59,681 bases of DNA from a virus. The position numbers and the translations under genes were made by a program. The DNA is taken from positions 1-59,681 of the IMG/VR virus record IMGVR_UViG_3300031787_000134; one strand, written 5' to 3'. The notes below the pieces were generated by a model. The model was not told the origin of the DNA. It saw nothing but the letters and a program-made list of their open reading frames with translations, and did no database searches. Shown here one piece after another: positions 41,064 to 58,317 of this stretch. Within the stretch, counting starts at the first letter, position 1, and every line of letters starts with the position of its first letter.

Positions 41064-41570
41064 CTACTTGAAAAAGATTACGTCGTCCAGCGGGACGAGT
41101 AGTTTCTTATCGGCGTTATCGGCGTGGAACTTTAGTAATTTTTCTTTGGGCACGATATAGCCTAGTGTGGTGTAGCCTTTGTTCCTTACCGGACATGGCC
41201 TGAAGGCCGCGAGGTTTGCCTCGAGGTACTTCACTAGAGCGGCCGTACAGAAGACAAACAACTCGTCAGTCTCGGCGAACCAGTAGAGGTAGTACGTAGC
41301 TCCATGAGCTGCGGCTTGCCAGGGTCCACCGGGCTTACCGGCCCGCTCGGGGGTGGCCTCGACGGACCACCTCTCCATAAACAAGTTCGTGCTCTTGCTA
41401 TAGAAGTCGGTCTTCAATTCTAGAATGGCGCGAGACCACTTCACTTGAAGGTCGCCTTTTCGCCCATCGGTGCGAACAATCGCACCTTGACCATACCGTT
41501 CCAGGAAGTCCTTCTCGGCAGCTTTGCCCTTCTTTAATTGGGCCGCCATACTAAACGTCTTGCTTTTCAT
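41064..41570 (-). CDS. PD-(D/E)XK nuclease, Holliday-junction-resolvase-like
   Basis: 168 aa from ATG 41570, with AAGGGAAG upstream. GKAAEKDFLERYG, RTDGRKGDLQ (Asp40) and RAILELKTDF (Glu51, Lys53) form the E...D...ExK pattern of archaeal-type Hjc resolvases and related phage endonucleases. A conserved aromatic segment (AHGATYYLYWF) follows. It is likely to cut branched replication intermediates. It lies next to the helicase and the nucleotide hydrolase. Confidence 0.7.
   Translation of the reverse strand: MKSKTFSMAAQLKKGKAAEKDFLERYGQGAIVRTDGRKGDLQVKWSRAILELKTDFYSKSTNLFMERWSVEATPERAGKPGGPWQAAAHGATYYLYWFAETDELFVFCTAALVKYLEANLAAFRPCPVRNKGYTTLGYIVPKEKLLKFHADNADKKLLVPLDDVIFFK
41107..41134 (-). 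promoter_or_regulatory. Sigma-28-type promoter
   Basis: Minus-strand TAAAGTTC, a 12-base spacer and a perfect GCCGATAA. A second GCCGATAA lies inside the spacer. It is placed inside the 3' end of the nuclease gene, about 50 bases before the gene that starts at 41055. Confidence 0.65.
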
Positions 41571-41647
41571 CGGACTTCCCTTATCGTTACAGGTAACTAC
41601 CACAATTTGGTTAATGTATCACAGGTATGTTAGATAGCCAAAACATG

Positions 41648-44125
41648 TTAAGTATCTGCTTTCCCATCAACTAAACAATCTAGGAACCACCGTGGTAGTA
41701 AGTGACTACCTTCGTTGTATAGTCTCATAAAGCTGCTATCCAAGCAATATGTTACTCCGTAATCCGCCTCGTGCCGCGACACCCGGCCCCCGGCCTGTAT
41801 CACAGTCTTCGCTGTCTCCCACAGATACCACTCGGGGTCCCGCTCTGCCAAAGCGGAGACCGCAGGGTCTCCAAGAGACGGCCAAGGAATCTTGGTGATG
41901 ACTTGCCAACGTCCCAAGTCGTCAGGCAAATCACATCCCTCGTACATCCCACTAGCGACAAGGATACTGCCCGGCGTGGTGAGATACCGTTGGTACATTT
42001 CTTTTTTGTTCTCTTTAGTGTGGAAGATGAACCTCCTATCGACAAGCTTACTCCGAAGGAGGTCGGCCATCTGATACGTGGCATGTACTAATCCCCGTTC
42101 GCCTTGGTGCCGCTCGAGCAGATGACTATTTATATAGTCAGCTATCACTTCGACTGACCGCTCCATATTGGCCCGGTTAACGGAGACAATGTCGTCCACT
42201 ATAAAAGGCCGCCGGTCGGGGGGAATCGGGGAGGGGCTATGCAAGTACGCCACCCGTTTGCCACTGAGGCCTAGGGTTTCGATATCCTTCGCTCCTATGG
42301 TTGCTGACAACAGTATCACCTTTGATACCTCCGATGGCCAAAGGCGCCGGGCTTCCTGCCCCACCTCAAGCGGAGTGAGCACAATGCAGTCCCGGTCCTC
42401 GGGCTCCCCGCGCTTCGTTCCCTTCCCATTAAATTCACGTACTGCCCTCGATACGCTATAAGCCGGGTGCCTACTCCGAAGAGTATCGAGGAGCTTCTCC
42501 ACCTTCACAGTCTTCTTCTTTTTGGGCGGGAGTCGCTCGGCCCAAGCTAGTAACTGCTCCCGACTGTATGCCGACGTGGGGTATAAATGGTCATGCCTCC
42601 ACAGAACTACTTCTCCCATACTACGGAGTGCTGGTATCAATTGGTGTGCTTCATCGACGATGAGGACATCTCGGTATAGGCGGTGGGCAAGGTAAGCATG
42701 GTACGTGTATACGCCCGGCCCCCGTCTGTACTTGGCTTGCGCTAGTTGTGTGCCGCAGGCGCAGCCCCTACAAAAGCCCTTCTTGATAGCGCGGACTTTA
42801 GCGCAAGGGAGCTGGCTATCCTCGCACCAATATGAGTCCAGCCGACGAAGAGTCGGCGTGTCCGGAAAGGTGGACAGGAACTGGTCGACTAGTTGATTGG
42901 TGGGGTTAATATACGAGGCGGAGTGCCCTGCTTTTAGCAGGGTCTTTGCAAGTGCGGACTTGCCTGTGTTGTGGGTTACTGTAAAATCTTCCATAAGGTA
43001 TAGATGGTTGCCGTCTAGTTCAAATCCAAAGTATTCTTGAACACCCAAATCTTCAACCTTTTTTATCCCGTCATTTCGTTGGTTTGATTTACTATTCAGT
43101 AGTGCTCCTCTCTTGTGTGGCACTAAGAGTGGTAGTTCGTTGACTCTTTGTGACGACATGTGAATACGATAATAGGGAGTACCTTTTATGACCTTTGTTT
43201 TTATCTTACCTACAGCAAATCCAAGACTGCGGGCAAGAAATACTACGTGTTGTATGAGTTTTAAATTTTTTTGGATAATCTCAATGGTTCCCATACCCGG
43301 CAGTACGTGTCCGTCGGTATCAACTAATCCAGCCAATAAAGCTAGACGACATTCGTAAGATGCAGTTAAGTACTGATGTGGAATATGCTTATTGTCTAAC
43401 ACGCCCAAGGAGCGAAGCTTATTTAAGATGGGATTTTTTTGTCCTCGAGGTACCGCGAGATGTCTGGTAATAGCTCGGTTATCTTGCTTTTTTTCGTCCC
43501 GAATCTTAAGGCCATATTCGTTTCCAATTTCTGCCCAATAGTCCAAGATAGTTGCATCCATATTCGTGACCGCCACTGTATTAGAAGAGCCATCTCCAAG
43601 CCAAGTTCCCAGAAAATATGGAGGAAGAGGAAGCTCTCCATCGCTTGGTCTAAAATCGATTCGTTCCGGCTTCCATAATTTAGTGCAATGCTTGTGGGAC
43701 TTAGAGGAGTTATTCCAATCAGATACAGTTTGCGTAATTAATTCATGTGTAAAATATCTGGGCGCTGGTCTGTTATATCCACCGTGTCGTTTGTAATATT
43801 GCAGGGACAGGATGTGATTATGTGTAACATCAAAGCTGGCCCCCCTGGTGGGGGTTACTCGCATCATTTTATCTCGGCCAGAAAATAGTTCTAGAACGGT
43901 GCGCGGTTTTGAGTCGGGTCCCATAAGCTGGTCACCAACTCGTATGTCCTCTACCGCGCGAAGTGTTCCGTCATACATGATGACCTTCTGTCCTCGGGCG
44001 TGACATGCAGTCGGAGCCACAATGACGAAGACATCGTAACGGTCCCACTGCTGCTCTAACAAAGTCAGAGTTTCTTTCTGAAAGTCCCGTATCACTTTGT
44101 ACGGGAAGTGTTTCAAGAGTTCCAC
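41648..44125 (-). CDS. DEAH helicase (DinG/XPD-like) interrupted by an intein
   Basis: 825 aa; the spliced helicase would be 479 aa. The GTG start at 44125 has CGGAGG ahead. The Walker A loop is split: residues up to APTA (40), the intein, then TGKS (387-390). C-terminal to this are four cysteines in the pattern of an iron-sulfur domain (SYWCEDSQLPC...GFCRGCACG), the DEAH box (LIVDEAHQL), motif III-like LLSATI and motif VI QAGGRVSRHE. This is a 5'-3' superfamily 2 helicase of the XPD/DinG type, probably the replicative or repair helicase. It is inactive until the intein is removed. Confidence 0.85.
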   Translation of the reverse strand: MELLKHFPYKVIRDFQKETLTLLEQQWDRYDVFVIVAPTACHARGQKVIMYDGTLRAVEDIRVGDQLMGPDSKPRTVLELFSGRDKMMRVTPTRGASFDVTHNHILSLQYYKRHGGYNRPAPRYFTHELITQTVSDWNNSSKSHKHCTKLWKPERIDFRPSDGELPLPPYFLGTWLGDGSSNTVAVTNMDATILDYWAEIGNEYGLKIRDEKKQDNRAITRHLAVPRGQKNPILNKLRSLGVLDNKHIPHQYLTASYECRLALLAGLVDTDGHVLPGMGTIEIIQKNLKLIQHVVFLARSLGFAVGKIKTKVIKGTPYYRIHMSSQRVNELPLLVPHKRGALLNSKSNQRNDGIKKVEDLGVQEYFGFELDGNHLYLMEDFTVTHNTGKSALAKTLLKAGHSASYINPTNQLVDQFLSTFPDTPTLRRLDSYWCEDSQLPCAKVRAIKKGFCRGCACGTQLAQAKYRRGPGVYTYHAYLAHRLYRDVLIVDEAHQLIPALRSMGEVVLWRHDHLYPTSAYSREQLLAWAERLPPKKKKTVKVEKLLDTLRSRHPAYSVSRAVREFNGKGTKRGEPEDRDCIVLTPLEVGQEARRLWPSEVSKVILLSATIGAKDIETLGLSGKRVAYLHSPSPIPPDRRPFIVDDIVSVNRANMERSVEVIADYINSHLLERHQGERGLVHATYQMADLLRSKLVDRRFIFHTKENKKEMYQRYLTTPGSILVASGMYEGCDLPDDLGRWQVITKIPWPSLGDPAVSALAERDPEWYLWETAKTVIQAGGRVSRHEADYGVTYCLDSSFMRLYNEGSHLLPRWFLDCLVDGKADT
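42968..44005 (-). other. Intein with LAGLIDADG endonuclease in the helicase Walker A motif
   Basis: 346 residues. It begins with Cys (CHARGQKVIMYDGT), has the block B motif TxxH (DVTHNHILSL) and ends VTHN before Thr of the C-extein. The endonuclease motifs are FLGTWLGDG and LALLAGLVDTDG. The ends give the standard chemistry: Cys1, penultimate His, terminal Asn, +1 Thr. It is inserted between Ala and Thr of APTATGKS. Confidence 0.9.
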
Positions 44126-44142
44126 AACCGCCTCCGAAAAAG

Positions 44143-44322
44143 TTATCGAGCCCGTCGCCGCAATTCCGCCATTGTCCTACTATTGTCCAGCCGAATCACA
44201 CTGATGTCAGTGTGGAGGTCGACTATCGCCCATATCAATTGCTGAATCTTGTACGTGATAAGGGCCACGCCTAGTACTCCCACTGCAATAAGGATACCGA
44301 TTAATGCTTTAATCTCTAGCAT
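44143..44322 (-). CDS. Small single-span membrane protein (59 aa)
   Basis: ATG 44322 follows GAGGTGA and lies inside the stop of the previous gene. The product has one N-terminal span (LIGILIAVGVLGVALITY) and a charged cytoplasmic-type tail (LRRRAR end). It lies directly upstream of the helicase. It is a possible holin or membrane anchor; nothing in the sequence decides. Confidence 0.55.
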   Translation of the reverse strand: MLEIKALIGILIAVGVLGVALITYKIQQLIWAIVDLHTDISVIRLDNSRTMAELRRRAR

Positions 44323-44540
44323 GACTCACCTCTGTTAATTTCAAGACAAAGTCCGAATCCGAATAGTAGGACGTCTACTACTATTAGCTGTCCCCCTAGT
44401 AAGGGGGATACCTCGAAGACAGTATCGGCCATAATACCGATGCCTCGCTTGGATATCCGGAGTACAGGAAGTATCAATGAGACACTAATCCTCCCCACTA
44501 ATTTACTATATACTACCCCGCCGATGTTAATACCCGTCAC
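44316..44540 (-). CDS. Putative two-span membrane protein (74 aa)
   Basis: GTG 44540 (or GTG 44555) opens a frame with two hydrophobic segments (GRISVSLILPVL and QLIVVDVLLFGFGLCL) separated by a basic loop. It overlaps both neighbours. The ribosome binding site is weak. With the following single-span protein it could form a membrane unit. Confidence 0.4.
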   Translation of the reverse strand: MTGINIGGVVYSKLVGRISVSLILPVLRISKRGIGIMADTVFEVSPLLGGQLIVVDVLLFGFGLCLEINRGESC

Positions 44541-44709
44541 GGAACCACCCCCCACCCAGGAGCAGGAATGCTCCCGCTGTTATCGCTCTCTGAAACGAGG
44601 TTCCGCCACATAGTTCACACCTCTCTTCGGGCGGCACATCCCTGTCGTCAATCTTGCGGATGACTTCGACTTGCTTTCCGCACTGAGTACAGTCCCACTG
44701 ATAGAGCAT
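44527..44709 (-). CDS. FmdB-type zinc-ribbon protein (60 aa)
   Basis: ATG 44709 is 6 bases after AAGGAG. MLYQWDCTQCGKQVEVIRKIDD, then CELCGGTSFQRAI, is the FmdB/regulatory zinc-ribbon fold with two CxxC pairs. Such domains bind DNA or act as small regulators. The promoter at 44818-44845 lies upstream. Confidence 0.75.
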   Translation of the reverse strand: MLYQWDCTQCGKQVEVIRKIDDRDVPPEERCELCGGTSFQRAITAGAFLLLGGGWFRDGY

Positions 44710-44786
44710 ACTTGTTACTCCTTGTTGATGCTCCGGCCCCATCCCCACTAGCTGAAGCGAGTGGTGAGGGACCGACGACTTGTTAC

Positions 44787-44972
44787 TTATCCCGCGGAGC
44801 GGGGCAGCCCATGTACCTTATCGACATAATCGGGATGAACCTTTACACTTACTATTCCGGGCCGCCCAATGAGGGTATACACAAGGCCGTACACTTCTTG
44901 TTGGGTGTCTGCATCGACCTCGTAGTCAGCTACCTCGCCCATGGCGTTACGAGCCGTTAGTAGTATCTTCAT
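44787..44972 (-). CDS. Hypothetical protein (61 aa)
   Basis: ATG 44972 overlaps the TGA of the preceding gene (ATGA), and GAGGTGG lies ahead. A compact alpha/beta sequence with no recognised motif. It carries a sigma-28-like promoter inside its 3' half. Confidence 0.6.
   Translation of the reverse strand: MKILLTARNAMGEVADYEVDADTQQEVYGLVYTLIGRPGIVSVKVHPDYVDKVHGLPRSAG
44818..44845 (-). promoter_or_regulatory. Sigma-28-type promoter
   Basis: Minus-strand TAAAGGTT (7 of 8), a 12-base spacer and GTCGATAA (7 of 8). It lies inside a coding sequence, about 105 bases before the zinc-ribbon gene at 44709. Confidence 0.5.
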
Positions 44973-45118
44973 TCCACCACCTCATATTCTTCAATGTACA
45001 GATGGTCTGCACTATACTCATCAGTTAAGTCAACTAGTATTCGCTCGGCGGTTTCTTTGGTTTTGCAAATTGCTGGCACAAAAGAAAACCCGGCAGCGTG
45101 GATGACATAAACTTTCAT
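44969..45118 (-). CDS. Hypothetical protein (49 aa)
   Basis: ATG 45118 overlaps the TGA of the gene upstream, and its own TGA overlaps the next ATG, so the three genes are translationally chained. MKVYVIHAAGFSFVPAICKT..., with an acidic end (EEYEVVE). It is too short for domain assignment. Confidence 0.55.
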   Translation of the reverse strand: MKVYVIHAAGFSFVPAICKTKETAERILVDLTDEYSADHLYIEEYEVVE

Positions 45119-45426
45119 TCTACTACTCCGTTATCTTGTAAAATTTGATTGAACAATCCTTCCAGTTGACCAATTAAGTAGGTGGCATCCTTGAAAGATT
45201 GGTACTCATCTCGGGGCCAATCGGCCACACTCGCATGTTGAACCACCAGCTCGTCCAACTTCTCGACCAGTTGTTGGATGTCAGCACGGCTATACCCGTG
45301 CTTGCGTGCTGGTCTGAAGACTTGCTGTCTAGCGTCGAACAGGGCAGCGGCCATCTTCCCGGCACTAGATGCTTGGTCAAACTCTTCTTGCTCTTCTGGT
45401 AGACTGAATTCCAAGATACCTTTCAT
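45115..45426 (-). CDS. Conserved phage protein of the LPEEQEEFD type (103 aa)
   Basis: AAGGAG lies 6 bases before ATG 45426. The opening LEFSLPEEQEEFDQA is shared by small helical proteins in replication or early regions of many phages. The rest is helical (YSRADIQQLVEKLDELV). The biochemical role is not known. Confidence 0.65.
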   Translation of the reverse strand: MKGILEFSLPEEQEEFDQASSAGKMAAALFDARQQVFRPARKHGYSRADIQQLVEKLDELVVQHASVADWPRDEYQSFKDATYLIGQLEGLFNQILQDNGVVE

Positions 45427-45474
45427 TGCTGACTCCTTTCAGTAGTCATCATTCCTCAAACGCCGGTATGGCTT

Positions 45475-45765
45475 TCACAGTCCCAACTCCTTTTTTACTC
45501 GTTCTTTAAATTCATTGATGATAGTCTCAAACCTGGGCAGCTGCCCGTAGTAATGTACGTAAGCAAGGGGGTCCATCTGCGCCCGGTTCCATGCCCGGTC
45601 AAAGTCTACCGCATTAATGGTGGACTGCTTCTCCACTTCCCAATCGTCGGCAGTAATATCAACAGCACTAAGACATAAATCAATATCGTGAAATAACTCT
45701 AAGTAGCGTGGCTGTCCTCTGCGGCGAAACCGTCTCCCACTCTTGATTGCTTCAATGATATTCAC
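45475..45765 (-). CDS. Small protein resembling Tad2/DUF2829-type anti-defence proteins
   Basis: GTG 45765 follows GGGAGAG and overlaps the upstream TGA (GTGA). The pattern NIIEAIKSGRRFRRRGQ...LSAVDITADDWEVE is like Tad2-type proteins: an N-terminal EA..SG.R..R segment, then a D(I)xADDWE motif. Tad2 binds the Thoeris signalling molecule in other phages. The second half (residues 52-96) is unlike the usual short domain. The match is suggestive, not secure. Confidence 0.45.
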   Translation of the reverse strand: MNIIEAIKSGRRFRRRGQPRYLELFHDIDLCLSAVDITADDWEVEKQSTINAVDFDRAWNRAQMDPLAYVHYYGQLPRFETIINEFKERVKKELGL

Positions 45766-46067
45766 AGTTTCTCTCCCTGAAAGATGGACCAGTACTCGCC
45801 ACTGACTTTATCGGCATTATGGTAAAATATCTTGAGCGAGGCAAAGAGGTCGGCTGCTGCGCTGTAATCAAAGCTATACGTCTTGGTGCCCCCGCCAGGG
45901 CTGACATCAGTTACTTCATATCCGGAACCGGTATCTCGGATAGTAAAGTGAGCGCGTTCGTGGTGGGTGATGGTTACCCTGTCTTTGGTATACGTTGCCG
46001 ATGACCGGTCCCCGTCCACCGAGAACAGGAAGTATTTCTTTTCTTTTTCTTCCTTTGACTTTGCCAT
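45762..46067 (-). CDS. Hypothetical protein (101 aa)
   Basis: AAGGAG lies 6 bases before ATG 46067. A Lys/Glu-rich start (MAKSKEEKEKKYFLF) is followed by a beta-rich body with alternating Thr. It carries the promoter at 45808-45835 near its end. Unknown function. Confidence 0.6.
   Translation of the reverse strand: MAKSKEEKEKKYFLFSVDGDRSSATYTKDRVTITHHERAHFTIRDTGSGYEVTDVSPGGGTKTYSFDYSAAADLFASLKIFYHNADKVSGEYWSIFQGEKL
45808..45835 (-). promoter_or_regulatory. Sigma-28-type promoter
   Basis: Minus-strand TCAAGATA, a 12-base spacer and a perfect GCCGATAA. The next gene starts at 45765, about 35 bases past the predicted start of transcription. Confidence 0.7.
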
Positions 46068-46106
46068 GTTATCTCCTTTTGGTAAGTCTACCAAACTTTG
46101 GTACAT

Positions 46107-46280
46107 TCACCGTTTGTGACAAACACATTGGCCGTCAATCAGTGTGTAAGATTCAACCCGGTTAGCGCACATCGCCCGACATTCCCGCATCATCTGGTAG
46201 TGGTCTTTGGGCCACCACTCGTCTGCTCTCGGATGGGCGCAGCCGGCTAGCAACGCGGTTAGTAATGTAATGTAATACAT
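46107..46280 (-). CDS. Small lipoprotein (57 aa)
   Basis: ATG 46280 is 6 bases after AAAGGG. The N-terminus YYITLLTALLAGC is a lipoprotein signal with lipobox LLAGC. The mature part of about 44 residues has four more cysteines (CRAMC...CVC). It is a candidate outer-membrane lipoprotein for lysis (o-spanin-like) or surface exclusion. No inner spanin is seen beside it. Confidence 0.6.
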   Translation of the reverse strand: MYYITLLTALLAGCAHPRADEWWPKDHYQMMRECRAMCANRVESYTLIDGQCVCHKR

Positions 46281-46302
46281 GCTGCCCTTTCTGACGTGCC
46301 GC

Positions 46303-46330
46303 AAAGGGCATCCTCGATGCCCGTTACAAA
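46303..46330. repeat. UTR hairpin element, copy 1
   Basis: GGGCAT-CCTCG-ATGCCC (46306-46322), with flanking AAA and GTTAC. It lies between the promoter at 46335 and the lipoprotein start, in orientation opposite to the other copies. Confidence 0.5.
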
Positions 46331-46334
46331 GTAC

Positions 46335-46362
46335 TTGTCGGCTGAACGGCTAAAATACTTTA
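46335..46362 (-). promoter_or_regulatory. Sigma-28-type promoter
   Basis: Minus-strand TAAAGTAT, a 12-base spacer and GCCGACAA (7 of 8). It serves the lipoprotein gene at 46280. Confidence 0.65.
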
Positions 46363-46371
46363 GCTTTTTAT

Positions 46372-47821: not shown

Positions 47822-48035
47822 CTTCCTCTCCTCCGATGCGCGTATAGTCGAGGTCAGCTAGTAAGTCTCTCGCAATCAAGATGGCAGTATCAACCATCTC
47901 AGCTGAGGACGCGTCGTCGGGGGAACGCATCACCACGGAAGGAAGTACCAGACTTGCTGCGGTGAATAGTCTGTCTCTGTACTCCTTGTTAATCTTTCTC
48001 TTTTGGTCCGCTCTTGATTTGATGTAGTTGCTCAT
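47811..48035 (-). CDS. Hypothetical helical protein (74 aa)
   Basis: GGGAGAG lies 8 bases before ATG 48035, which overlaps the previous TGA (ATGA). A basic N-terminus (MSNYIKSRADQKRKINKEYRD) and an acidic C-terminus. No motif is recognised. Confidence 0.6.
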   Translation of the reverse strand: MSNYIKSRADQKRKINKEYRDRLFTAASLVLPSVVMRSPDDASSAEMVDTAILIARDLLADLDYTRIGGEEDEI

Positions 48036-48526
48036 TTGCCGACTCTCCCAAACATGTTGTTGACTAACCGGTCCCATTTCTCTTCTGCAATATCTCCGGG
48101 TAGGAGGTAAGTGTTCATGATATCTTGACCCTCGTCATAATGGTCTAAGTTCAGCGCGCAATGTCCGAGCTCGTGGTAGACCAAGGTCATCCTATCCGCC
48201 GCGCTAGCCCGGTCCCAGTACGGCTTCAAGAACGAAACTGTCCAAGGAGCTTGACAGTAGCCGATAACGTTGTCTCCTAAGGGAGACGGGAACTTGTCCT
48301 CGAAGATAGCCTTCCGGGTCCGGAGGCAAGGAACGCCTCTCTTTATCGCATCTTGGGAGAAAGCCTCGATTTGGGGAAACAGTCGTTCGTTGAACATGTA
48401 TACTATACTGTCTACAGTACACGGCTGGGGTCCATTGATACGGCGTTCAACTATATCAGTCTTACACGCGAAAGCAGACCCGCACGCGGGGGACAATAAA
48501 GTAATAGCTAGTAGGTATTTTTTCAT
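48032..48526 (-). CDS. Exported zinc metallopeptidase, matrixin-like (164 aa)
   Basis: ATG 48526 opens with a signal peptide (KKYLLAITLLSPACGSAFA) and possible cleavage before or at Cys21. The active site is HELGHCALNLDH (His118, Glu119, His122, with a third His at 129), followed by a Met-containing turn, GQDIMNTYL, as in metzincins. Several Cys suggest an extracytoplasmic enzyme. It lies directly downstream of the promoter at 48581-48608. A role in envelope remodelling, lysis or blocking further infection is possible. Confidence 0.75.
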   Translation of the reverse strand: MKKYLLAITLLSPACGSAFACKTDIVERRINGPQPCTVDSIVYMFNERLFPQIEAFSQDAIKRGVPCLRTRKAIFEDKFPSPLGDNVIGYCQAPWTVSFLKPYWDRASAADRMTLVYHELGHCALNLDHYDEGQDIMNTYLLPGDIAEEKWDRLVNNMFGRVGK

Positions 48527-48580: not shown

Positions 48581-48608
48581 TTGTCGGCAGAACGTAAAAA
48601 TAACTTGA
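48581..48608 (-). promoter_or_regulatory. Sigma-28-type promoter
   Basis: Minus-strand TCAAGTTA, a 12-base spacer and GCCGACAA (7 of 8). It drives the metallopeptidase gene and the chain of genes below it. Confidence 0.7.
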
Positions 48609-48940: not shown

Positions 48941-51900
48941 TTAGTCTTCTAGTTTAATGCCGGCCAAAGTCTTGGCCACTGCAGCACTGCCCTTTAATGG
49001 GCAAGTGCCTCCTAGTATTCTATTCAATTCTGCGTAGGCGTCCACTTCCATTATTCGCTTCGCCACTTCGACTTGCTCGTCTGGTACCTCGATGATACTT
49101 TCATCGTGCCAGTCCATCACGATGGGGGTCCACTGTATCTTAGCCTCAGTCAAAAGTTGAGCCGCAATTCTGGAGTATAACTGCAACAAATCGTGACCGG
49201 TACTTTGCACCTGGCGATTTAGTATATCTTTCAAGTACTTATCGTCTATGCAGATAGGGCGACCATACCCGTTTTCAATCCAACCACCATTCGCTCGCCA
49301 CTCATCGCGGAGCCAGTCCACGTAATTGAGGACGCCTTCTTTGGCGGCCATAAGAGAATTGTGCATCTCCTCCACTTCGTCGAGGGACATATCCACGCCG
49401 TTAAGGGAGAGTATCTTCTGTTTCTTCTTTACTCCCGAGCCGTAGTTATCCGATAGGATAAGGAGCTTCGCAATGCCGCGCTCCTTCTTGAACGCTTTCT
49501 TTGTTGCGTCCATCGCCTCGACCGAAGGATTGTACGGGTCATAGCCAAGCGACGTTAGCTTCGGTCCGATGCCCGCCATCATACTACCGTAGAACAAGTA
49601 GATGTCATTCTTCTTGGCGCCTGGCCCGTAGAGGGCGAGCAAGTTCTTATCTTGCGATAGCTCCGCAGTCACCACCATCTCCAAGGCATTCACATCACAG
49701 TCAACAAAGCTATGGCCGGGCCGACTAACAAAGCCCGAGAGGGTACCCCTAGTCTTGGGACACTGCGATGTCACGTAAGTACTCGTGCCCCGGCGCACTA
49801 ACAAATGTTCCGTTTCCACGCTAAGACAATAGACCATTCCATCATATGTCTGAGTAGCTACATGAGACTTCTTGTATTCCCGATGCGAGCCTTTTCGGAT
49901 GTATAAGGAGTAGGCTAGTGGTCTCTTGAACTTGCGGACCCCATACCCGTGGCGAACAAGCAATGCTTGGATAGAGTCAACAACGTCTTCGTGAATACAA
50001 GTAAATTCAAAGGCATCTTTAGTTGTGCCTCGCTTATGTCCATCCCAAAAGGATAGCGCTTCCACAAAAGTTTCTACTTGGTTATCCCCGAGAACAGACA
50101 AATCAAATTTCTTGTCGGCTGTCAATAGGGGATGTTCAAATTCAACGCGGTACCAAGAATGGACGCCTCTAGTACTGACGTGACTGGCGGGAATTCCAAC
50201 CAACTCCATAAACTTTTGTATCTTTCTGTCTCTCTTAAATCCGAACCGCCACATATAAGGATTCTTTACCCGCGCACTGGAGCCGTCAGCTTGGACAGCG
50301 GCGGCCATCCATATGTCGCGCTCACTGAAGAACGACTCGGTTGTGGTACTGGGACGGATGCTGGCATGCGCCATGCACTCCTTGGTTCGGAGCTTGTGAA
50401 TGTCGGATGCTGTTGTAGTAACCCGTCTGGTTCGTTCGGTTTCGGCGGCGTGCTGTAGGTCACCGATTAGTAATAGCCGGTGGTCTGGAGTTACAAGTAG
50501 CGGGGTGTTATTAGCCATCCCGATAGCGACCATATCCCCCGAGTAGTGTCTTTGTGTTGTGGCTTGGACAGGACCCCACTGACCAAACAATGTATCTGGT
50601 TGAATGGTCCAGACCAATTCACCTACTTGTAAATCCTTGATTAGTTTCCACCCAGACGGAGTTAGTGCTTCGGTATCGGGAGCAAAACACTGCTGCAGAT
50701 TGGGAGCCTTACCAGCCAGTCGTCCAGTCACAGTGCCGGGCATTTTGAAGGAGGGGTGTATCGTAGAGCGGTGCTCTACTCTCTCGACATAGTCCGAGAC
50801 ATAAGATAGTTCCTTCACCTTCAAGGCGCGCCCGATGAGGATGTGACCAACATCGCCCATCGACTGTAATGCGTCCTCACTAATGGCTGGCATCCCGCTC
50901 TCGGTTTGAAGCAAGACTTTGTGCTTCAGCTTCTCGTACATCAGCCACCGCAAGTGGTCTCCGGATTGCAAGTTGAACGAGTAGCCTGGCTCAATTCCGA
51001 GCTCTATCCTGTGGCGCTTGGCTTCCCAGTTTTGCCACACCTTACTTTCCTCAGGAAGCATAGCTTCTAGCGCAGCCCACTTCTCCCAGTTCTTGCTTAC
51101 CGTTACCCCGTCCTTTAAGAAGCGTGGTGGTTCCTTTCGTTCCTTCTTCTTCTTGTAGCGGGCCGGCTCCGTGGCGAGGAACTCCGCTACTTTGGCCTGC
51201 TCGAAAGCGCGGACGTGCGGGGCGACAAGTGCGTGCTCCCTAAACGTCTGTTCGCTGTCTGCAATCCCCGCCTCAAGCTCCGTTGCGTAGGCGGTCCAAT
51301 GCTTCCTGTCCGTCAGGATACCAGCAATCTTTTGGTCGATGTGTACCTTCACATGGGGAAGGAAGTCATTTCGGTGGTAATCGCCGAGTGCGGGGAACCG
51401 TTTCACGATAGGCAAGAGATGCTCTGTGTAGAGGAGGTATGTAGCCTCGGCATCGAGGACGCAGTACTTACCGAGTATCTCGGGAGGGGACCGCCACATC
51501 TCGCCCTTCATCGGTGCCTTGTTCTGTTTACAGTAGCCGTTACTGACCAACCACTCGTCTAGTTCAGTTTCATTGGTGTTGGTCCACATCAGAACGTCGA
51601 CCATCGCCTCTTTAAGACCCCACTTCTGGCCCTCCCAGCCTTCACTAGCGCATTGCATGTACAGGCCGAAGGTGCAGGCGAGCCAGTCGGAGTGGACGCC
51701 TAAGTCCCTCCGAATCCATCCCCCATCGAAGTAAACGTTATGGGCCAGCAAACCGCGGTGGATTAACAATAGGTCGGTCAGCTGTTGTATCGACTCGTCT
51801 GATAGTTGGTCCATCGACAGATAACAACTACCCTTGTCCCAAGACAAGCCGACGCCTACTACGTACGCTTCACTGTCGGGAAGGGAGTAATCGTTACCTC

Positions 51901-52075
51901 GTGTTTCGAAGTCTACTGCGACCACCGCTGCTTGGCTGGCTGACAGAAGTAACGCGGAGGTCTCCGTTTCGCTGGGGCATACAAGTTGATACGACCGACC
52001 CACCCTAGCAGGTGTGGGGCGGGGTTCCACGAGCACGAAGCGGGGATGGGTAGTCAATGTAACGTGGTCAGACAT
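48941..52075 (-). CDS. Family A DNA polymerase interrupted by an intein
   Basis: 1044 aa; 735 aa after splicing. The 3'-5' exonuclease has VDFET (Asp55/Glu57), AHNVYFD (Asn113, Asp117) and YCVLD (Tyr204, Asp208). The polymerase motifs are FVDCDVNALEMVV (motif A), KKERGIAKLLILSDNYG (motif B) and DWHDES (motif C). AGGAG lies 5 bases before ATG 52075 and a hairpin element sits just upstream. It replicates the phage genome with the DEAH helicase. No phage primase or ligase gene is visible. The intein separates PNLQQ from CPKTRG. Confidence 0.95.
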   Translation of the reverse strand: MSDHVTLTTHPRFVLVEPRPTPARVGRSYQLVCPSETETSALLLSASQAAVVAVDFETRGNDYSLPDSEAYVVGVGLSWDKGSCYLSMDQLSDESIQQLTDLLLIHRGLLAHNVYFDGGWIRRDLGVHSDWLACTFGLYMQCASEGWEGQKWGLKEAMVDVLMWTNTNETELDEWLVSNGYCKQNKAPMKGEMWRSPPEILGKYCVLDAEATYLLYTEHLLPIVKRFPALGDYHRNDFLPHVKVHIDQKIAGILTDRKHWTAYATELEAGIADSEQTFREHALVAPHVRAFEQAKVAEFLATEPARYKKKKERKEPPRFLKDGVTVSKNWEKWAALEAMLPEESKVWQNWEAKRHRIELGIEPGYSFNLQSGDHLRWLMYEKLKHKVLLQTESGMPAISEDALQSMGDVGHILIGRALKVKELSYVSDYVERVEHRSTIHPSFKMPGTVTGRLAGKAPNLQQCFAPDTEALTPSGWKLIKDLQVGELVWTIQPDTLFGQWGPVQATTQRHYSGDMVAIGMANNTPLLVTPDHRLLLIGDLQHAAETERTRRVTTTASDIHKLRTKECMAHASIRPSTTTESFFSERDIWMAAAVQADGSSARVKNPYMWRFGFKRDRKIQKFMELVGIPASHVSTRGVHSWYRVEFEHPLLTADKKFDLSVLGDNQVETFVEALSFWDGHKRGTTKDAFEFTCIHEDVVDSIQALLVRHGYGVRKFKRPLAYSLYIRKGSHREYKKSHVATQTYDGMVYCLSVETEHLLVRRGTSTYVTSQCPKTRGTLSGFVSRPGHSFVDCDVNALEMVVTAELSQDKNLLALYGPGAKKNDIYLFYGSMMAGIGPKLTSLGYDPYNPSVEAMDATKKAFKKERGIAKLLILSDNYGSGVKKKQKILSLNGVDMSLDEVEEMHNSLMAAKEGVLNYVDWLRDEWRANGGWIENGYGRPICIDDKYLKDILNRQVQSTGHDLLQLYSRIAAQLLTEAKIQWTPIVMDWHDESIIEVPDEQVEVAKRIMEVDAYAELNRILGGTCPLKGSAAVAKTLAGIKLED
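49763..50689 (-). other. Intein with degenerate LAGLIDADG endonuclease in the DNA polymerase
   Basis: 309 residues (463-771). Cys1 opens CFAPDTEALTPSGWKLI, block B is VTPDH (Thr529, His532), and the endonuclease-like segments are AAAVQADGSSARV and ALSFWDGHK. The C-terminal end is STYVTSQ followed by Cys. The usual His-Asn pair is replaced by Ser-Gln, a non-standard terminus that is known among inteins but rare. Confidence 0.85.
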
Positions 52076-52200: not shown

Positions 52201-52312
52201 CGACTCACCCCCACTAAACCACTTAAATATTAAGTACTTTACTCGTTGGTAGGAGCGTTCACGTAAGTAGTTCCCGCCAACGCTCCCGTCGGAGAGCTAA
52301 GGCACAAATAAG

Positions 52313-52336: not shown

Positions 52337-52388
52337 AGGAGGGGGAGCGCTACTTCCCCCAGTGTCGCCCGCTCGAAGAGCGACTACA

Positions 52389-52412
52389 AACTAGGTTTCT
52401 TTACACCTAGTT
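52389..52412 (-). terminator. Hairpin at the end of the 52411 gene
   Basis: A perfect 8-bp stem AACTAGGT/ACCTAGTT overlaps the stop codon. The T run is poor. It may protect the 3' end or act with the following hairpins as a terminator. Confidence 0.4.
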
Positions 52413-52719
52413 ATGCTCTCTTCTGTTCTGGTGCGGGCTTAATCATAACCACGTACAGTGGTTTGCCACCAGCCACTTCTTCTTCGCTGTTCTGATAGAG
52501 GTCAATGTAGACACGTTGACCTGCTTTGATGTCGGTCTCGATGGTGGTAGCGACCGAAGCAACGGCCTTGCTCTTCTCGGACTTGGGTTTGAAAAGACCG
52601 GTCCGGAGGAGCGATGCAATCTTTTCCTTTACACCACCAGCGGGGCTGGCAGGACGGGGAGCTGCACCTGCTGGACGACCACCAAAACGGTTACCAGAAG
52701 ATTGATTGTTGTACGCCAT
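52411..52719 (-). CDS. Basic Gly/Asn-rich protein, possible ssDNA-binding protein (102 aa)
   Basis: GAGGTG lies ahead of ATG 52719. The N-terminus is disordered and basic (NNQSSGNRFGGRPAGAAPRP), followed by a compact helix and beta strands (RVYIDLYQNSEEEVAGGKPLYVVMI). It has its own sigma-28-like promoter and a terminator, so it is probably abundant. It lies next to the DNA polymerase. Single-strand binding is a guess from charge and context. Confidence 0.55.
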   Translation of the reverse strand: MAYNNQSSGNRFGGRPAGAAPRPASPAGGVKEKIASLLRTGLFKPKSEKSKAVASVATTIETDIKAGQRVYIDLYQNSEEEVAGGKPLYVVMIKPAPEQKRA

Positions 52720-52774
52720 GACTAGACACCTCACTTGATACGCGGCGACATTGCCGTCGTTACTTACATACCAT

Positions 52775-52802
52775 GTATCGGCAAACTGAGTAAATTACTT
52801 TA
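52775..52802 (-). promoter_or_regulatory. Sigma-28-type promoter
   Basis: Minus-strand TAAAGTAA, a 12-base spacer and GCCGATAC (7 of 8). It starts the unit of the 52411 gene, with ATG 52719 about 50 bases downstream. Confidence 0.65.
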
Positions 52803-52866
52803 GCCCTATTTTCAGTTTGCCTTGACCACCAGCACCAGCACCAGCACCAGCACCAGGAACACACAT
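52795..52866 (-). CDS. Possible 23-aa Gly-Ala peptide
   Basis: ATG 52866 overlaps the stop of the gene upstream (TAATG). The frame reads MCVPGAGAGAGAGGQGKLKIG and ends in the -35 element of the promoter at 52775-52802. The DNA has four GGTGCT units in tandem. It may be a real peptide or only a microsatellite. Confidence 0.25.
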   Translation of the reverse strand: MCVPGAGAGAGAGGQGKLKIGLK

Positions 52867-53171
52867 TAGTTTAATCCGGTTGGTTTGTCCGGAGCGGGAC
52901 TACTGTCCCCTATCAAATCAAACGCTTCTTCGAGTAGGCCGTAAATGGTATCCCTAGCCCGGTCGACTTGATTCTCGGGCACCATGTTTGCGATACAAGT
53001 GGCCAACATCTCGGTCAAGATGGTCATCGTGGCGTTGTGGCCAGCCAACTGACTAGTCGCGTTGGTCCAATACAGCAGGGAATCAAGGGCTGCTTCTTTG
53101 TAGTAGGTATCTAGCTGGTCTGAGTCACCAGTTTCCATCCTACTTATCGAAGAGTTTTTTAACTTCGTCAT
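52866..53171 (-). CDS. Hypothetical helical protein (101 aa)
   Basis: GGGAGA lies 6 bases before ATG 53171. The open frame continues further upstream without a start signal. The product is helical and acidic (YYKEAALDSLLYWTNATSQLAGHNATMTILTEMLATCI). It overlaps the end of the exonuclease gene by 32 bases. No family is recognised. Confidence 0.55.
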   Translation of the reverse strand: MTKLKNSSISRMETGDSDQLDTYYKEAALDSLLYWTNATSQLAGHNATMTILTEMLATCIANMVPENQVDRARDTIYGLLEEAFDLIGDSSPAPDKPTGLN

Positions 53172-54093: not shown

Positions 54094-54094
54094 A

Positions 54095-54331
54095 TTAATC
54101 ACTCCCTACTTGGTTCAAGTACACCCAAGCTCTTTCCTTGGGGGAAAGTTTCACCAGCTCGGGATTGCTATATCCTACCACCCACCCGATGATGTAGGCC
54201 CCATCGGGGCCGAAGCCCGCGATGTGCCACAACTTTCTACTGTCCTGATGACGGGCTAGGAACGGAGTCCGGTGCAATCTAAAAAGTTCAAGTAGACTGT
54301 ACTGGGTCGGAGTCGCTGGGTTGTAGTCCAC
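54095..54331 (-). CDS. Hypothetical protein (78 aa)
   Basis: GTG 54331 follows AAAGGAG. It has many aromatic residues (KLWHIAGFGPDGAYIIGWVVGY). It overlaps the 54288 gene by 44 bases and ends two bases before the exonuclease start. Unknown function. Confidence 0.55.
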   Translation of the reverse strand: MDYNPATPTQYSLLELFRLHRTPFLARHQDSRKLWHIAGFGPDGAYIIGWVVGYSNPELVKLSPKERAWVYLNQVGSD

Positions 54332-54509
54332 TGCCGTTCTCCTTTGCTTGCTGTTTCATCATCTGTTCCGCTCTGTCAATCACGTCTCTCATATATCTCT
54401 GCATGGCGAGTTTGGCGATACTATCAACCGGCATCCCAGCAGCGTCGGACAATTGGCGGGCTAGTTCTGCTTCATCACCATGTAACTTGAAGGCTAGACG
54501 TAGTCTCAC
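54288..54509 (-). CDS. Small helical protein, possibly DNA-binding (73 aa)
   Basis: GTG 54509 overlaps the TGA of the protease gene (GTGA). A strand-helix-helix layout (MRLRLAFKLHGDEAELARQLSDAAGMPVDSIAKLAMQRYMRD) hints at a ribbon-helix-helix regulator, but this is not certain. The C-terminal third is polar. Confidence 0.5.
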   Translation of the reverse strand: MRLRLAFKLHGDEAELARQLSDAAGMPVDSIAKLAMQRYMRDVIDRAEQMMKQQAKENGSGLQPSDSDPVQST

Positions 54510-55210
54510 TTATTGACTCCATTCGTGATAAATTGTTCGTGGATATAGACAATTTGATTGTAGCCGAACAACCCGCCGAAGGCGGAGGTATCAAGGGCCG
54601 GCTTCTCGGGGTACAAGTTACTCACGCTGTTAGTGACCTTGGTAAAGAATCCAGGTGCCGTTACTAGTAGATTGTGCGCTTGGTGGAGGGTCTCATTGTA
54701 AAAGTGCATCAAGATATCGGCTTCGCTCATCGAGAGGTGGGCACGCAAATCATGCAATGCGACTTCGTCGGCTTGTTGTAATTGGGTAGCTAAGTTGCTG
54801 GCCAGTTGTGCAGTGACCACACCTTGCGCGAAGATACGGACAGGATGCCACAGCAAGAAGCTATGTGGAGTAGAGTATCTCTCATCGCAAAAGAGCAGCA
54901 ACTGAAACGCCATGCTCGCAGCCAAGCCCCTTACAAAACACCTGAAGTGGACACCTTCACTCTTGAGTTGAACCATCTTGTCAACTAAAAAGCTACCGGC
55001 TATTACACTCCCGCCAGGACTAGAGATAATGATGTCGATATCCTTTCCGGTCTTAGCCAACGCGTCCATTGCATTCAGCATCGGGCCGGCGATATTGTCC
55101 GAGATAACCCCGTTCAAGACGATGGTTCTTTCCGGGACAAGTTCCACCTCGGTCTTCGCTCTTGCGAAAGTAGACAAAAACAAGGAAGCTAACAAGATTA
55201 GAAACTTCAT
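54506..55210 (-). CDS. Exported ClpP/SppA-like serine protease (234 aa)
   Basis: ATG 55210 is chosen over ATG 55219 for its spacing to GGGAG. The signal peptide is MKFLILLASLFLSTFARA. The mature part has the ClpP-fold signatures SSPGGSV (oxyanion, 63-69), GLAASMAF with nucleophile Ser99, and LLWHPVR with His122; the acid residue is probably in the helix that follows. ClpP-fold enzymes are normally cytoplasmic, whereas exported ones are SppA/NfeD-like. It starts in the stop of the transglycosylase gene (TAATG), so both are made together in the periplasm. Confidence 0.75.
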   Translation of the reverse strand: MKFLILLASLFLSTFARAKTEVELVPERTIVLNGVISDNIAGPMLNAMDALAKTGKDIDIIISSPGGSVIAGSFLVDKMVQLKSEGVHFRCFVRGLAASMAFQLLLFCDERYSTPHSFLLWHPVRIFAQGVVTAQLASNLATQLQQADEVALHDLRAHLSMSEADILMHFYNETLHQAHNLLVTAPGFFTKVTNSVSNLYPEKPALDTSAFGGLFGYNQIVYIHEQFITNGVNK

Positions 55211-55851
55211 TACAAACATCTCCCGAGGTAAGAGTTGACGCGGAGAACATACTCCTGCGTCTCTTTAGATAAGGTACCGGTTTGAATGAGCCGTGTCAAC
55301 TGGGCATACCCACCATTATACAGCACCAAAGCTAAGGTACGATTGCCGTCCACGTAATCGAGGTAATACTTGAGAAGACACGTCCCATACTTGACATTCG
55401 CTCGGTTATCCATTAACCTCGCTACTAGAGTCTCGTCACTCACCCCCCGGGCATAAGGCAAGCGGCACTGGATGGCTGCTTCCTTTGCCCCTATGAGTGT
55501 AACTTGCATCAGGCCGTACGCTCCCGCTCCAGAGACTGCATCTCTGTTGAAGCCCGATTCAGCTGCGACGACAGATGCCGCCAGCTTGAGGAACGTGGTA
55601 GACGTATCAACGGACTCACTACCGAGTAAGAACATCGCGGCTTTTACCTGCTCGGGGGAAACAGCCCGGCCAATGGCCAGCTTCTCCCCACACTCGTGCC
55701 ACGACAACAGCTCCGGAGACCAAGGCAAGAAGTCACCGCTTCCCGCCTTTATCTGGGTCTCGGCCATAACCGGACCGGTCACCGCGACCGTGGAGATTAT
55801 ACTCCCTAGTAACTTTACGATTATTGTCTTCACGGAATTTTTTAGCTGCAT
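55210..55851 (-). CDS. Exported lytic transglycosylase (213 aa)
   Basis: GAGGAAG precedes ATG 55851. The signal peptide covers residues 1-30 (IIVKLLGSIISTVAVTGPVMA). The catalytic domain has AAESGFNRDAVSGAGAYGLMQVT, with Glu98 as general acid, and a downstream NVKYGTCLLKYYLD...LALVLYNGG, the Slt/GEWL family pattern. It cuts the glycan strands of the cell wall. The signal peptide points to use from inside an infected cell (lysis or conjugation-like remodelling) rather than in the virion. Confidence 0.85.
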   Translation of the reverse strand: MQLKNSVKTIIVKLLGSIISTVAVTGPVMAETQIKAGSGDFLPWSPELLSWHECGEKLAIGRAVSPEQVKAAMFLLGSESVDTSTTFLKLAASVVAAESGFNRDAVSGAGAYGLMQVTLIGAKEAAIQCRLPYARGVSDETLVARLMDNRANVKYGTCLLKYYLDYVDGNRTLALVLYNGGYAQLTRLIQTGTLSKETQEYVLRVNSYLGRCL

Positions 55852-56188
55852 CTTTCTTCCTCTTATACTCCGAGGCTAGCGCCTCGGTGTCGAGCGTGCT
55901 GGTTTCAGACTTGTCTTCTTCTCTTTGTACTATGGCGCGGCTGCCTGCTAGTTCATTTCCAGTATCGGCGAGGTACTCATTCTGCTTCCGGACCATGTCC
56001 TTGAGTTCGCCCATGGTCTGGTTAATCTTGGCTAGCTTCTCTTGCAAAGCGGCTTGTTTGGTGGCGGTGGGGTCTAAGAGACCCCCGGGCCGGGTTGCGG
56101 GTGGTTTGTCAAATTGCTCCTTGACAATCTTGCGGGTACGCTTCTCCCGTATCATCGGGATAACGTTGCTGGGCTTGTCCTCGCTCAC
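55733..56188 (-). CDS. Charged hypothetical protein (151 aa)
   Basis: GTG 56188 has GGAGGG ahead and overlaps the previous TGA (GTGA). The product is Lys/Arg/Glu-rich with a central coiled coil (LQEKLAKINQTMGELKDMVRKQNEYL) and a Gly/Arg-rich end (HGRGDRSGYGRDPDKGGKR). It overlaps the transglycosylase gene by 119 bases. No family. Confidence 0.55.
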   Translation of the reverse strand: MSEDKPSNVIPMIREKRTRKIVKEQFDKPPATRPGGLLDPTATKQAALQEKLAKINQTMGELKDMVRKQNEYLADTGNELAGSRAIVQREEDKSETSTLDTEALASEYKRKKDAAKKFREDNNRKVTREYNLHGRGDRSGYGRDPDKGGKR

Positions 56189-56301
56189 AGTCTGCCCTCC
56201 TTCCTTGCTCTGTTGATACGCTGATTCAGATTGTACACTAGTCTCTTCCGAAGTTTCTTTTCGGGTTTCATTGTTGCGCCTTTACCTGGTTTAGTCTTCA
56301 T
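56185..56301 (-). CDS. Small very basic protein (38 aa)
   Basis: AAAGGA lies 8 bases before ATG 56301, which falls inside the end of the gene upstream. The TGA overlaps the next GTG. About one third of the residues are Lys or Arg (MKPEKKLRKRLVYN...RINRARKEGRL). It may bind nucleic acid. Confidence 0.45.
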   Translation of the reverse strand: MKTKPGKGATMKPEKKLRKRLVYNLNQRINRARKEGRL

Positions 56302-56569
56302 TGTGAAATCCTTTGTTGGTGGCAAGGTAATATGCTTCTAGTGTGTCTAGTCTCTTGACAACTTCAGCTAAGTATTCATCCTTCTCTCGCTGCCGTTCGG
56401 CTAAGTCCTCAGCTACTGCGGCCACGATATCGGGCCTCTTGTCGAGAGCATCCGTTAGGATGTCGAACAGCGCTTGCGCGCTGTCGGCATTGGTAATGCC
56501 TTCCCGATATAGAGCGTCAGTTAATCTGGCTGCGAGTTGGATACTGGAAGTGATTTCGTTGGTCTTCAT
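56291..56569 (-). CDS. Hypothetical helical protein (92 aa)
   Basis: ATG 56569 overlaps the previous stop (TAATG), with GAGGAG ahead. A fully helical product (LAARLTDALYREGITNADSAQALFDILTDAL...). Unknown function. Confidence 0.6.
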   Translation of the reverse strand: MKTNEITSSIQLAARLTDALYREGITNADSAQALFDILTDALDKRPDIVAAVAEDLAERQREKDEYLAEVVKRLDTLEAYYLATNKGFHNED

Positions 56570-56778
56570 TACAGAATCTCCTCACTAAAGGCGGCGTGGA
56601 CCGCGGTGTAAACCGCTTTTACCTGGTAAGGGGGAGCATCTTTTAGTGCTCGAAGGATAGCCATCTCCACCTCGTGTGCCGCGTCAGAGGAGCAGCCAGC
56701 TAATTCGCTGACCGAGGCTGCCAGTAGATTGGCGACACTGTCTACTTGATATTGATAATCAGTATCGTTGCTGTTCAT
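56569..56778 (-). CDS. Hypothetical helical protein (69 aa)
   Basis: GAGGCAG precedes ATG 56778. Acidic and helical, with a PYQVKAVYTAVHAAF end. The QVKA codons carry one copy of the GGTAAARGC motif that clusters in this arm. Confidence 0.6.
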   Translation of the reverse strand: MNSNDTDYQYQVDSVANLLAASVSELAGCSSDAAHEVEMAILRALKDAPPYQVKAVYTAVHAAFSEEIL

Positions 56779-56785
56779 ATCTGCC

Positions 56786-56998
56786 TCAGAAAGGGGTGTT
56801 AATAATGGGAGCTACTTCGGTAGGCTCCTCGTCTGTAAAGACGAGATGGATTGGGTACATCGGGACATCGTCTCGGGTGACTATGTCCAGCTTCTGGACA
56901 AGGACATCGGGTATGCCCTCGACATTGCTGATAAACAAGTCCCTCTCCCATTCAGTATCGAAGTACGCGACATTGCTAAATCCCGGTAAGTCTCGCAC
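56786..56998 (-). CDS. Hypothetical acidic protein (70 aa)
   Basis: GTG 56998 follows AAGGAGG. A small alpha/beta protein (NVAYFDTEWERDLFISNVEGIPDVLVQKLDIV). No recognised motif. Confidence 0.6.
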   Translation of the reverse strand: MRDLPGFSNVAYFDTEWERDLFISNVEGIPDVLVQKLDIVTRDDVPMYPIHLVFTDEEPTEVAPIINTPF

Positions 56999-57001
56999 GG
57001 C

Positions 57002-57175
57002 TCAATCCTCCTTAGCATAATTGGTAAAGTGATACTTGACTTTGACTGGGTATACTATCCTGCCGTCTTCGGTTTTCTCGGCCAACAGCTCCGCTGGTAT
57101 ATTCTCTTCGGCACACTTCGCGATAAACTTGAGGGCATCTTCTTTGGAGTCGAGAAAGAATGTTTCGGTCTTCAC
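57002..57175 (-). CDS. Hypothetical protein (57 aa)
   Basis: GTG 57175 lies 5 bases after GGGAG. A longer frame from 57214 would run through the hairpin element and is rejected. The product is KTETFFLDSKEDALKFIAKCAE..., alpha/beta, with a basic end. Unknown function. Confidence 0.55.
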   Translation of the reverse strand: MKTETFFLDSKEDALKFIAKCAEENIPAELLAEKTEDGRIVYPVKVKYHFTNYAKED

Positions 57176-57187
57176 GTTCACTCCCTT

Positions 57188-57212
57188 GTATCGGGCACTT
57201 CGTGCCCTTTGC
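57188..57212. repeat. UTR hairpin element, copy 6
   Basis: GGGCAC-TTC-GTGCCC (57193-57207), with flanks GTATC and TTTGC. It lies directly before the ribosome binding site of the 57002 gene and is almost identical to copy 2. Confidence 0.6.
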
Positions 57213-57219
57213 AATCTTG

Positions 57220-57558
57220 TTATTCTTCCCCAGTTGTTGGCCGGGGATAGTTCTCATGAGTTACAGTAACCGCCTTTACCTGGTCCGGGATAATCGTCTT
57301 GAGTCCGCTGTCGCCCTTCTCCTCCCGATAGTTCAATTTTGTGGCGAGGATAGTGAGCAGCTGCGAGAGCATGATTTGGTCCAAGTATGGGATGGTCCTG
57401 TAAATCACAGTACCGGAAGCGTATTCTACTTTGACTCTCGCCCATTTGAGGTCTCTCCTAGCCGCGCGATACGCCCTAGCAAAAGAAAAACTCACCTTCA
57501 CTGCTGTGTACCCTAGCAACGCTAGTCCGCCATAGATTAGGATAGTACCGATACTCAT
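57220..57558 (-). CDS. Membrane-anchored hypothetical protein (112 aa)
   Basis: AGGAG precedes ATG 57558. The N-terminal membrane span (IGTILIYGGLALLGYTAVKVSFSF) is followed by a basic segment (RAYRAARRDLKWARVKV) and a soluble domain. It is oriented with the bulk in the cytoplasm by the positive-inside rule. Unknown role. Confidence 0.6.
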   Translation of the reverse strand: MSIGTILIYGGLALLGYTAVKVSFSFARAYRAARRDLKWARVKVEYASGTVIYRTIPYLDQIMLSQLLTILATKLNYREEKGDSGLKTIIPDQVKAVTVTHENYPRPTTGEE

Positions 57559-57749
57559 TTGTTTGGCTCCTGTTCATTGAGAAAGTTCGCAATTAAATTA
57601 GCTAGCTCGTCCGCTTTTTTTAATAGGCGCCTATCCCCATTGTGCTTAATCTGAATGCATAGACCCCGGTTTGCGTGTCCATGTGTATTGTGGACGCCAA
57701 TACTTCTTGCATCTATATCTACTGTATCCGTGTTTTTATACCAAAACAT
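57555..57749 (-). CDS. Hypothetical protein (64 aa)
   Basis: ATG 57749 has GAGGTGG ahead; its TGA overlaps the next ATG. It contains a His/Asn-rich middle (VHNTHGHANRGLCIQIKHNGDRR) and a helical end. No motif can be assigned. Confidence 0.55.
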   Translation of the reverse strand: MFWYKNTDTVDIDARSIGVHNTHGHANRGLCIQIKHNGDRRLLKKADELANLIANFLNEQEPNK

Positions 57750-57750
57750 A

Positions 57751-58077
57751 TTAGACCACCTCGCTATTGCTATATTGTTCCATGAAATCGTTCAGTTCCC
57801 CTTCGTCGTAGTATCTGCCATCTAGCTCGACTACGTCCATGTTATCAATGTAAGTCAGGACTTCTTGGCGGTACGCAGTCGGGTCCACCTCGCGGAGTAC
57901 TTGAGACGGGGAGTAAGTGTAGGAACCGATAACAACTTCGGGCAGGGTGTCGTCCATTAGTTCATCGTGTCTCTGCTCTAGCTCTGCTTCAGTCCAGAAG
58001 CTGACCGTTTCGAGCGCAGCGTCTAACAGTTCCGGTCTGGCATTGAAGAGTTGGCGGGCTTTGTTGTACGTTGACAT
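57751..58077 (-). CDS. Acidic hypothetical protein (108 aa)
   Basis: AAAGGAA precedes ATG 58077. Strongly acidic, with ELEQRHDELMDDTLPEVVIG and DGRYYDEGELNDFMEQY. It is the first gene downstream of the promoter at 58291-58317, after a leader of about 205 bases. Unknown; an acidic early protein could mimic DNA. Confidence 0.55.
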   Translation of the reverse strand: MSTYNKARQLFNARPELLDAALETVSFWTEAELEQRHDELMDDTLPEVVIGSYTYSPSQVLREVDPTAYRQEVLTYIDNMDVVELDGRYYDEGELNDFMEQYSNSEVV

Positions 58078-58290
58078 AGCTAATTCCTTTCAGTCATTAT
58101 CTTTTCTGCGAAGCATTGACTTTTTATTGGGTCAAGGAGGGGACACCGTCCGTGGTGTCTTGTAGGCTGGCCTTGACTCGCGGTAACGGACAACCGCAAG
58201 GCGGTGTTCCTTGACGATTTGTCCCATAGCGGATATCATGGAGGTATCTTGATTGCTACTAGCAGCATCCTGCTGCGTTGTATAACTATC
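58078..58290 (-). other. Structured leader of the 58077 gene
   Basis: On the minus strand, after the promoter, come GCAGCA-GGA-TGCTGC (58261-58275), an ACACCGC/GCGGTTGT hairpin with GTTAC flank (about 58183-58215), and GGACACC-ACGGAC-GGTGTCC (about 58139-58160). No gene with a ribosome binding site is visible. The region could hold an attenuator or regulatory RNA. Confidence 0.4.
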
Positions 58291-58317
58291 TTATCGGCAC
58301 TTTTTAGAAAAACTTGA
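58291..58317 (-). promoter_or_regulatory. Sigma-28-type promoter
   Basis: Minus-strand TCAAGTTT, an 11-base spacer and a perfect GCCGATAA, the best -10 and near-best -35 of the set. It stands just after the stop of the 58321 gene. Confidence 0.75.

Follow-up and report, generated by a model that had tools for sequence, protein, structure and literature searches.

σ28 (FliA)-type promoters ahead of replication and accessory genes in an uncultured phage, with host FliA as their probable reader

An uncultured phage, represented by a record of 59,681 bases that was analysed over its whole length (the window; genome G000 below), carries a set of sites on its replication and accessory arm that match σ28-class promoters. 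We consider it probable that these promoters are read by a host FliA-type holoenzyme, which would drive the replication arm in short units, with the structural arm served mostly by σ70. The promoter class, the excess of sites over chance, their conserved positions, the strand split between promoter types and the hairpins that follow the promoters were all read from sequence, and from them we infer a reader, host FliA, and a consequence, namely that phage replication is tied to the motility state of the host and proceeds best in motile cells.

The structural genes of this phage (terminase, portal, head and tail-fibre-like) lie on the plus strand, and its replication and accessory genes, including those for a helicase, a family A polymerase, a RuvC-like resolvase and nucleotide enzymes, occupy the minus strand from approximately 39.7 kb. 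A search of the phage collection with the window DNA returned no near match; the portal had neither a match nor a named relative in that collection, the terminase showed just 21-23% identity, to three records, and the matches of the polymerase were weak. An exact 17-bp tandem repeat of 8.5 copies, which may be an assembly edge, occupies the very end of the record (59538..59681).

The initial annotation had listed eight σ28-type sites on the minus strand, and all of them are present as read, with spacers of 11 bases (631 and 58291) or 12 bases and, as it had also stated, a perfect -10 element, exact GCCGATAA, at four of them (631, 41107, 45808 and 58291). The promoter that heads the replication arm (TCAAGTTT-N11-GCCGATAA, 58291..58317) has a 5' hairpin (GCAGCAGGATGCTGC) and lies approximately 200 nt from its gene, and the promoter at 52775..52802 (TAAAGTAA-N12-GCCGATAC) stands before ORF 52411..52734, which itself precedes the DNA polymerase gene. 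Two further promoters with 5' hairpins are found at 48581..48608 (TCAAGTTA-N12-GCCGACAA, hairpin GGGCACGTAGTGCCC) and at 46335..46362 (TAAAGTAT-N12-GCCGACAA, hairpin GGGCATCGAGGATGCCC); the promoter-proximal ORF of the former (48032..48526) encodes an exported HELGH metallopeptidase-like protein with a signal-like start, and that of the latter (46107..46304) a small, exported-type, lipoprotein-like product with an LAGC box. The site at 631..657 (TAAAGATT-N11-GCCGATAA; 24.0 bits) is intergenic and precedes ORF 294..590. Three sites fall within the 3'-terminal part of the gene that lies upstream, namely 41107..41134 (TAAAGTTC-N12-GCCGATAA), which is located in a gene of PD-(D/E)XK-like type, 51 nt upstream of the start of a dATP/dGTP diphosphohydrolase-like gene, 44818..44845 (TAAAGGTT-N12-GTCGATAA), before an FmdB-like zinc-ribbon ORF (44527..44709), and 45808..45835 (TCAAGATA-N12-GCCGATAA), 42 nt after which ORF 45475..45765 starts. 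To these we add a ninth site, on the plus strand of the structural arm (17107..17134; TAAAGCTC-N12-GCCGATAG), which precedes the tail-fibre-like ORF 17205..20036 and has a hairpin (AGCCCCCCATGACGGGGGGTT) on its 3' side. The further observation that nearly all sites lie just ahead of a gene start with a ribosome binding site extends to all nine (within 108 nt, although the ORF counted for 58291 is a doubtful one of 39 codons), but 48% of random positions in the arm also have such a start within 120 nt, so that nearness to a start codon is weak evidence on its own.

Recognition of these sites as FliA-type promoters was borne out by a scan with a matrix set externally from the textbook consensus, without training on the window, which at a threshold of at least 16 bits gave 10 matches (9 on the minus strand and 1 on the plus strand; those at 41143 and 41134 overlap) as compared to a mean of 0.40 and a maximum of 3 in shuffled sequence. 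Column-permuted decoy matrices averaged 0.37 matches, and none of 300 reached 10. Simple pattern counts gave the same picture, with four minus-strand sites for strict TMAAG plus GCCGATAA (mean 0 over 60 shuffles) and 10 when up to one mismatch was allowed (0.27 in shuffles). Exact dyad counting, which uses no prior input, placed the dyad TAAAG/CTAAA-N15-17-CCGAT, or its variant TTTTT-N8-10-CCGAT, at rank 1 in three related phages (G017, G006 and G002), and the σ28 dyad or its T-run variant at rank 6 in G005; variation among the boxes of the window keeps exact 5-mer dyads down at rank 161 there. The dyad counts of G005/G007, G013 and G015 are dominated by large short-repeat arrays. A made-up consensus promoter used as a blastn query yielded only partial matches, which were judged to be chance. 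By their boxes (TMAAG(TTT) and GCCGATAA) and their spacers of 11-12 bases, the sites thus classify as putative σ28 (FliA)-type promoters.

Six related phages of 57-61 kb (G001, G002, G005, G006, G015 and G017) show the same excess, with 4-10 matches each as compared to decoy means of 0.3-0.6; with the same matrix, the excess was absent from four more distant relatives (no match in G008, G010 and G013, and one in G018). Placement is conserved as well. Five genomes have a promoter before their orthologue of ORF 52411..52734, the gene that precedes the polymerase gene, and in the noncoding region before this orthologue both boxes are kept in all five phages, with a diverged spacer between them. 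Promoters also precede the orthologues of the genes at 40600, 48032, 46107 and 57751 in two to five genomes: the 41107 site has orthologues in G001 and G006 and a weaker one in G002, the 46335 promoter has one in G006, G005 and G006 carry a promoter ahead of the orthologue of 48032..48526, and G006 has one ahead of the orthologue of the gene served by 58291. On the structural arm, the tail-fibre-like gene of G001 and G005 has a promoter in the same place as 17107. The excess in relatives together with these orthologous positions argues for conserved σ28 promoters.

Positions outside the matrix provide additional evidence. In the phage group (42 sites), a C precedes TMAAG in 83%, a T precedes GCCGATAA in 71% and a G follows GCCGATAA in 76%, so that flanking bases unused by the matrix also match the σ28 consensus; these sites further show an A-rich stretch upstream and a T followed by a purine 7-8 nt past the -10 box, which fits a transcription start site. 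At 40% of the group sites, the 40 nt that directly follow the promoter fold better than shuffled sequence (p < 0.05), as compared to 10% of random positions, and the stem of the hairpin at the tail-fibre gene has been rebuilt by compensatory changes across three phages (window, G001 and G005). A stem-loop directly past the presumed start would fit a role in mRNA protection.

Intergenic σ70-type promoters, in contrast to the σ28-type sites, are concentrated on the structural strand. In the window, such promoters were found on the plus strand at 1840..1868 (TTGACA-N17-TAGAAT), 11263..11292, 16225..16254 (TTGACT-N18-TATAAT) and 29158..29185 (TTGACA-N16-TATACT). Across five genomes (G000, G001, G002, G005 and G006), and with the count limited to intergenic sites because several TTGACA-TATAAT matches sit in conserved coding sequence, the structural strand carried 33 σ70-like and 4 σ28-like sites and the replication strand 1 and 14, respectively (Fisher p = 2e-8, with related genomes treated as independent). 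In the mechanism that we propose, each site would consist of two boxes separated by 11 or 12 bases, with transcription likely starting approximately 8 nt past the -10 box, and its reader would be the RNA polymerase of the host in complex with the host's own FliA-type σ factor; the replication and accessory arm would then be transcribed as a series of short units, many of which would carry a hairpin that stabilises the 5' end, and the structural arm would depend mostly on σ70-type promoters. The idea of a replication arm driven by FliA, as put forward in the initial annotation, agrees with the excess, the relatives, the 11/12 spacer, the σ70 split and the absence of a phage σ factor or RNA polymerase from the searches described below; against it count the four distant relatives that lack the excess and the three window sites that lie in coding sequence, one of them under coding constraint.

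Could the sites have arisen by chance or from coding constraint? Three of them (41107, 44818 and 45808) do lie within coding sequence, and that at 41107 encodes a conserved peptide and is partly coding-constrained, so this explanation is possible for single sites; for the set as a whole it is contradicted by a site count that none of the 300 decoys and no shuffle reached, and by the noncoding footprint before 52411 that five phages have kept, and we regard it as highly improbable. Hardly more credible is a phage single-subunit RNA polymerase that would use these sites as its promoters, even though a repeated, conserved element before genes is what T7-like phages show, since two boxes with a spacer of either 11 or 12 bases are typical of σ factors, which argues against such a polymerase, and since no polymerase match was found among the scanned proteins; in a direct PF00940 search of the genome, the controls stayed silent.

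The identity of the σ factor involved bears on a third explanation, under which the reader would be a highly diverged σ factor with σ28-like specificity that the phage itself encodes. Phages T4 and SPO1 encode divergent σ factors, and many small proteins of the replication arm are without a family match. However, boxes and flanks match those of cellular σ28, and neither the window nor 13 relatives gave a FliA/WhiG match (0/14 phages); a search for σ region 4 in the phage and its relatives gave a single match, below cut-off, in G009. Scans of the proteins against PHROGs and Pfam, which left some small ORFs outside their scope, found neither a σ factor nor an RNA polymerase, and in 46 other phage contigs with such sites no FliA match exceeded the curated cut-off, with weaker σ-like matches in 5. 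These searches give no indication of a phage-encoded σ-family protein, and we judge the explanation unlikely; with neither a phage σ factor nor a phage RNA polymerase found, host FliA is the likely and simplest reader. The gene at 41064..41603 is the single gene that tracks promoter presence in all six relatives; it was considered as a transcription or σ factor and rejected, as its ELK motif points to a nuclease of the PD-(D/E)XK type.

With regard to the host, contigs that carry portal relatives have been binned to organisms as unlike as Oligoflexales, Nanoarchaeia, Saprospiraceae and Thiomargarita. Portal relatives were found in 2 of 58 genomes from the phylum of the Oligoflexales MAG, whereas among 369 Gammaproteobacteria the one genome with a portal was that of the seed; the two same-phylum relatives are distant, and binning of phage contigs is unreliable. 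Bdellovibrio FliA has been described as a global regulator of the attack phase (PMC3627812). Six genomes of the same phylum as the Oligoflexales MAG (G450-G455) contain 11-32 strict FliA sites each (reversed control, 0), numbers that suggest an enlarged FliA regulon; the baseline was 7 strict sites over 114 Gammaproteobacteria, none of which had more than one. The C, T and G that flank the sites in that phylum are those seen in the phage group, in a comparison confined to these two sets. Oligoflexia (Bdellovibrionota) may thus be taken as no more than a lead to the host.

The consensus is TAAAGTTT-N11-GCCGATAA for Escherichia coli σ28/FliA and CTAAA-N16-CCGATAT for Bacillus subtilis σD; no support was found for the enteric label that the initial annotation had attached to the FliA consensus. 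The phage sites resemble bacterial σ28/FliA promoters in both boxes, in spacing and in the C before TAAAG, but often have NCCGATAN and use TCAAG beside TAAAG, and they precede replication genes whereas the bacterial promoters serve flagellar and chemotaxis genes. Phage promoters that are read by host σ70 or by phage-encoded σ factors are known, as in T4 and SPO1; the window phage shares with such phages a reliance on host RNA polymerase, but likely uses an alternative σ factor of the host, divided by genome arm. The attack-phase promoters of Bdellovibrio (TTAAG-N16-CCGATA; PMC3627812) offer a parallel in that FliA regulates globally there, beyond flagella, but they are host promoters with a TTAAG -35 element where the phage has TMAAG. 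Flagellotropic phage Chi, whose adsorption needs flagella (PMC10399903), would resemble the window phage in relying on a motile host, provided that our inference for the latter holds; its link is adsorption, whereas the link proposed here is transcription, with no sign of flagellar adsorption. In the open-access literature, to which our search was confined (subscription journals and preprints lay outside its scope), we found no description of phage replication driven by a host motility σ factor.

Arrays of σ28-type sites occur in many viral contigs and are thus not private to the window phage. The strict pattern CTAAAGTTT-N11/12-GCCGATAA matched at least 120 viral-contig stretches, as compared to 6 for the reversed pattern; among the matches listed, 66 of 120 had two or more strong sites on the same strand, and the densest array held up to 11 sites in 5 kb. 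Their wide occurrence suggests that such promoters may form a general class in phages. At 57 of 192 sites (90 loci among the matches listed), TTGACA lies inside the σ28 spacer and is followed after 16-18 bases by a TATAAT-like hexamer, as compared to 4.2 in shuffled flanks, and such interlocked σ28/σ70 promoters, seen in L131, L148, L156, L161, L171, L208 and other viral contigs, might be usable by either holoenzyme. As a speculation that we hold only tentatively, use of host FliA may be a common, undescribed strategy of environmental phages that ties replication to the motile state, with interlocked promoters working in both states in some lineages and the window group perhaps infecting Bdellovibrionota with a global FliA. 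If our main interpretation is right, phage replication would depend on the motility σ factor of the host, and phage ecology would be linked to swimming as opposed to sessile or biofilm life. The replication module of another contig, L152, has five σ28 sites on the polymerase strand, and its polymerase shows 43-47% identity to that of the window. Both the family A DNA polymerase (48941..52075, minus strand; homology is interrupted near residues 462 and 782) and the DNA helicase (41648..44125, minus strand; Hint/LAGLIDADG intein) of the window carry an intein, and the L152 polymerase is without the insert.
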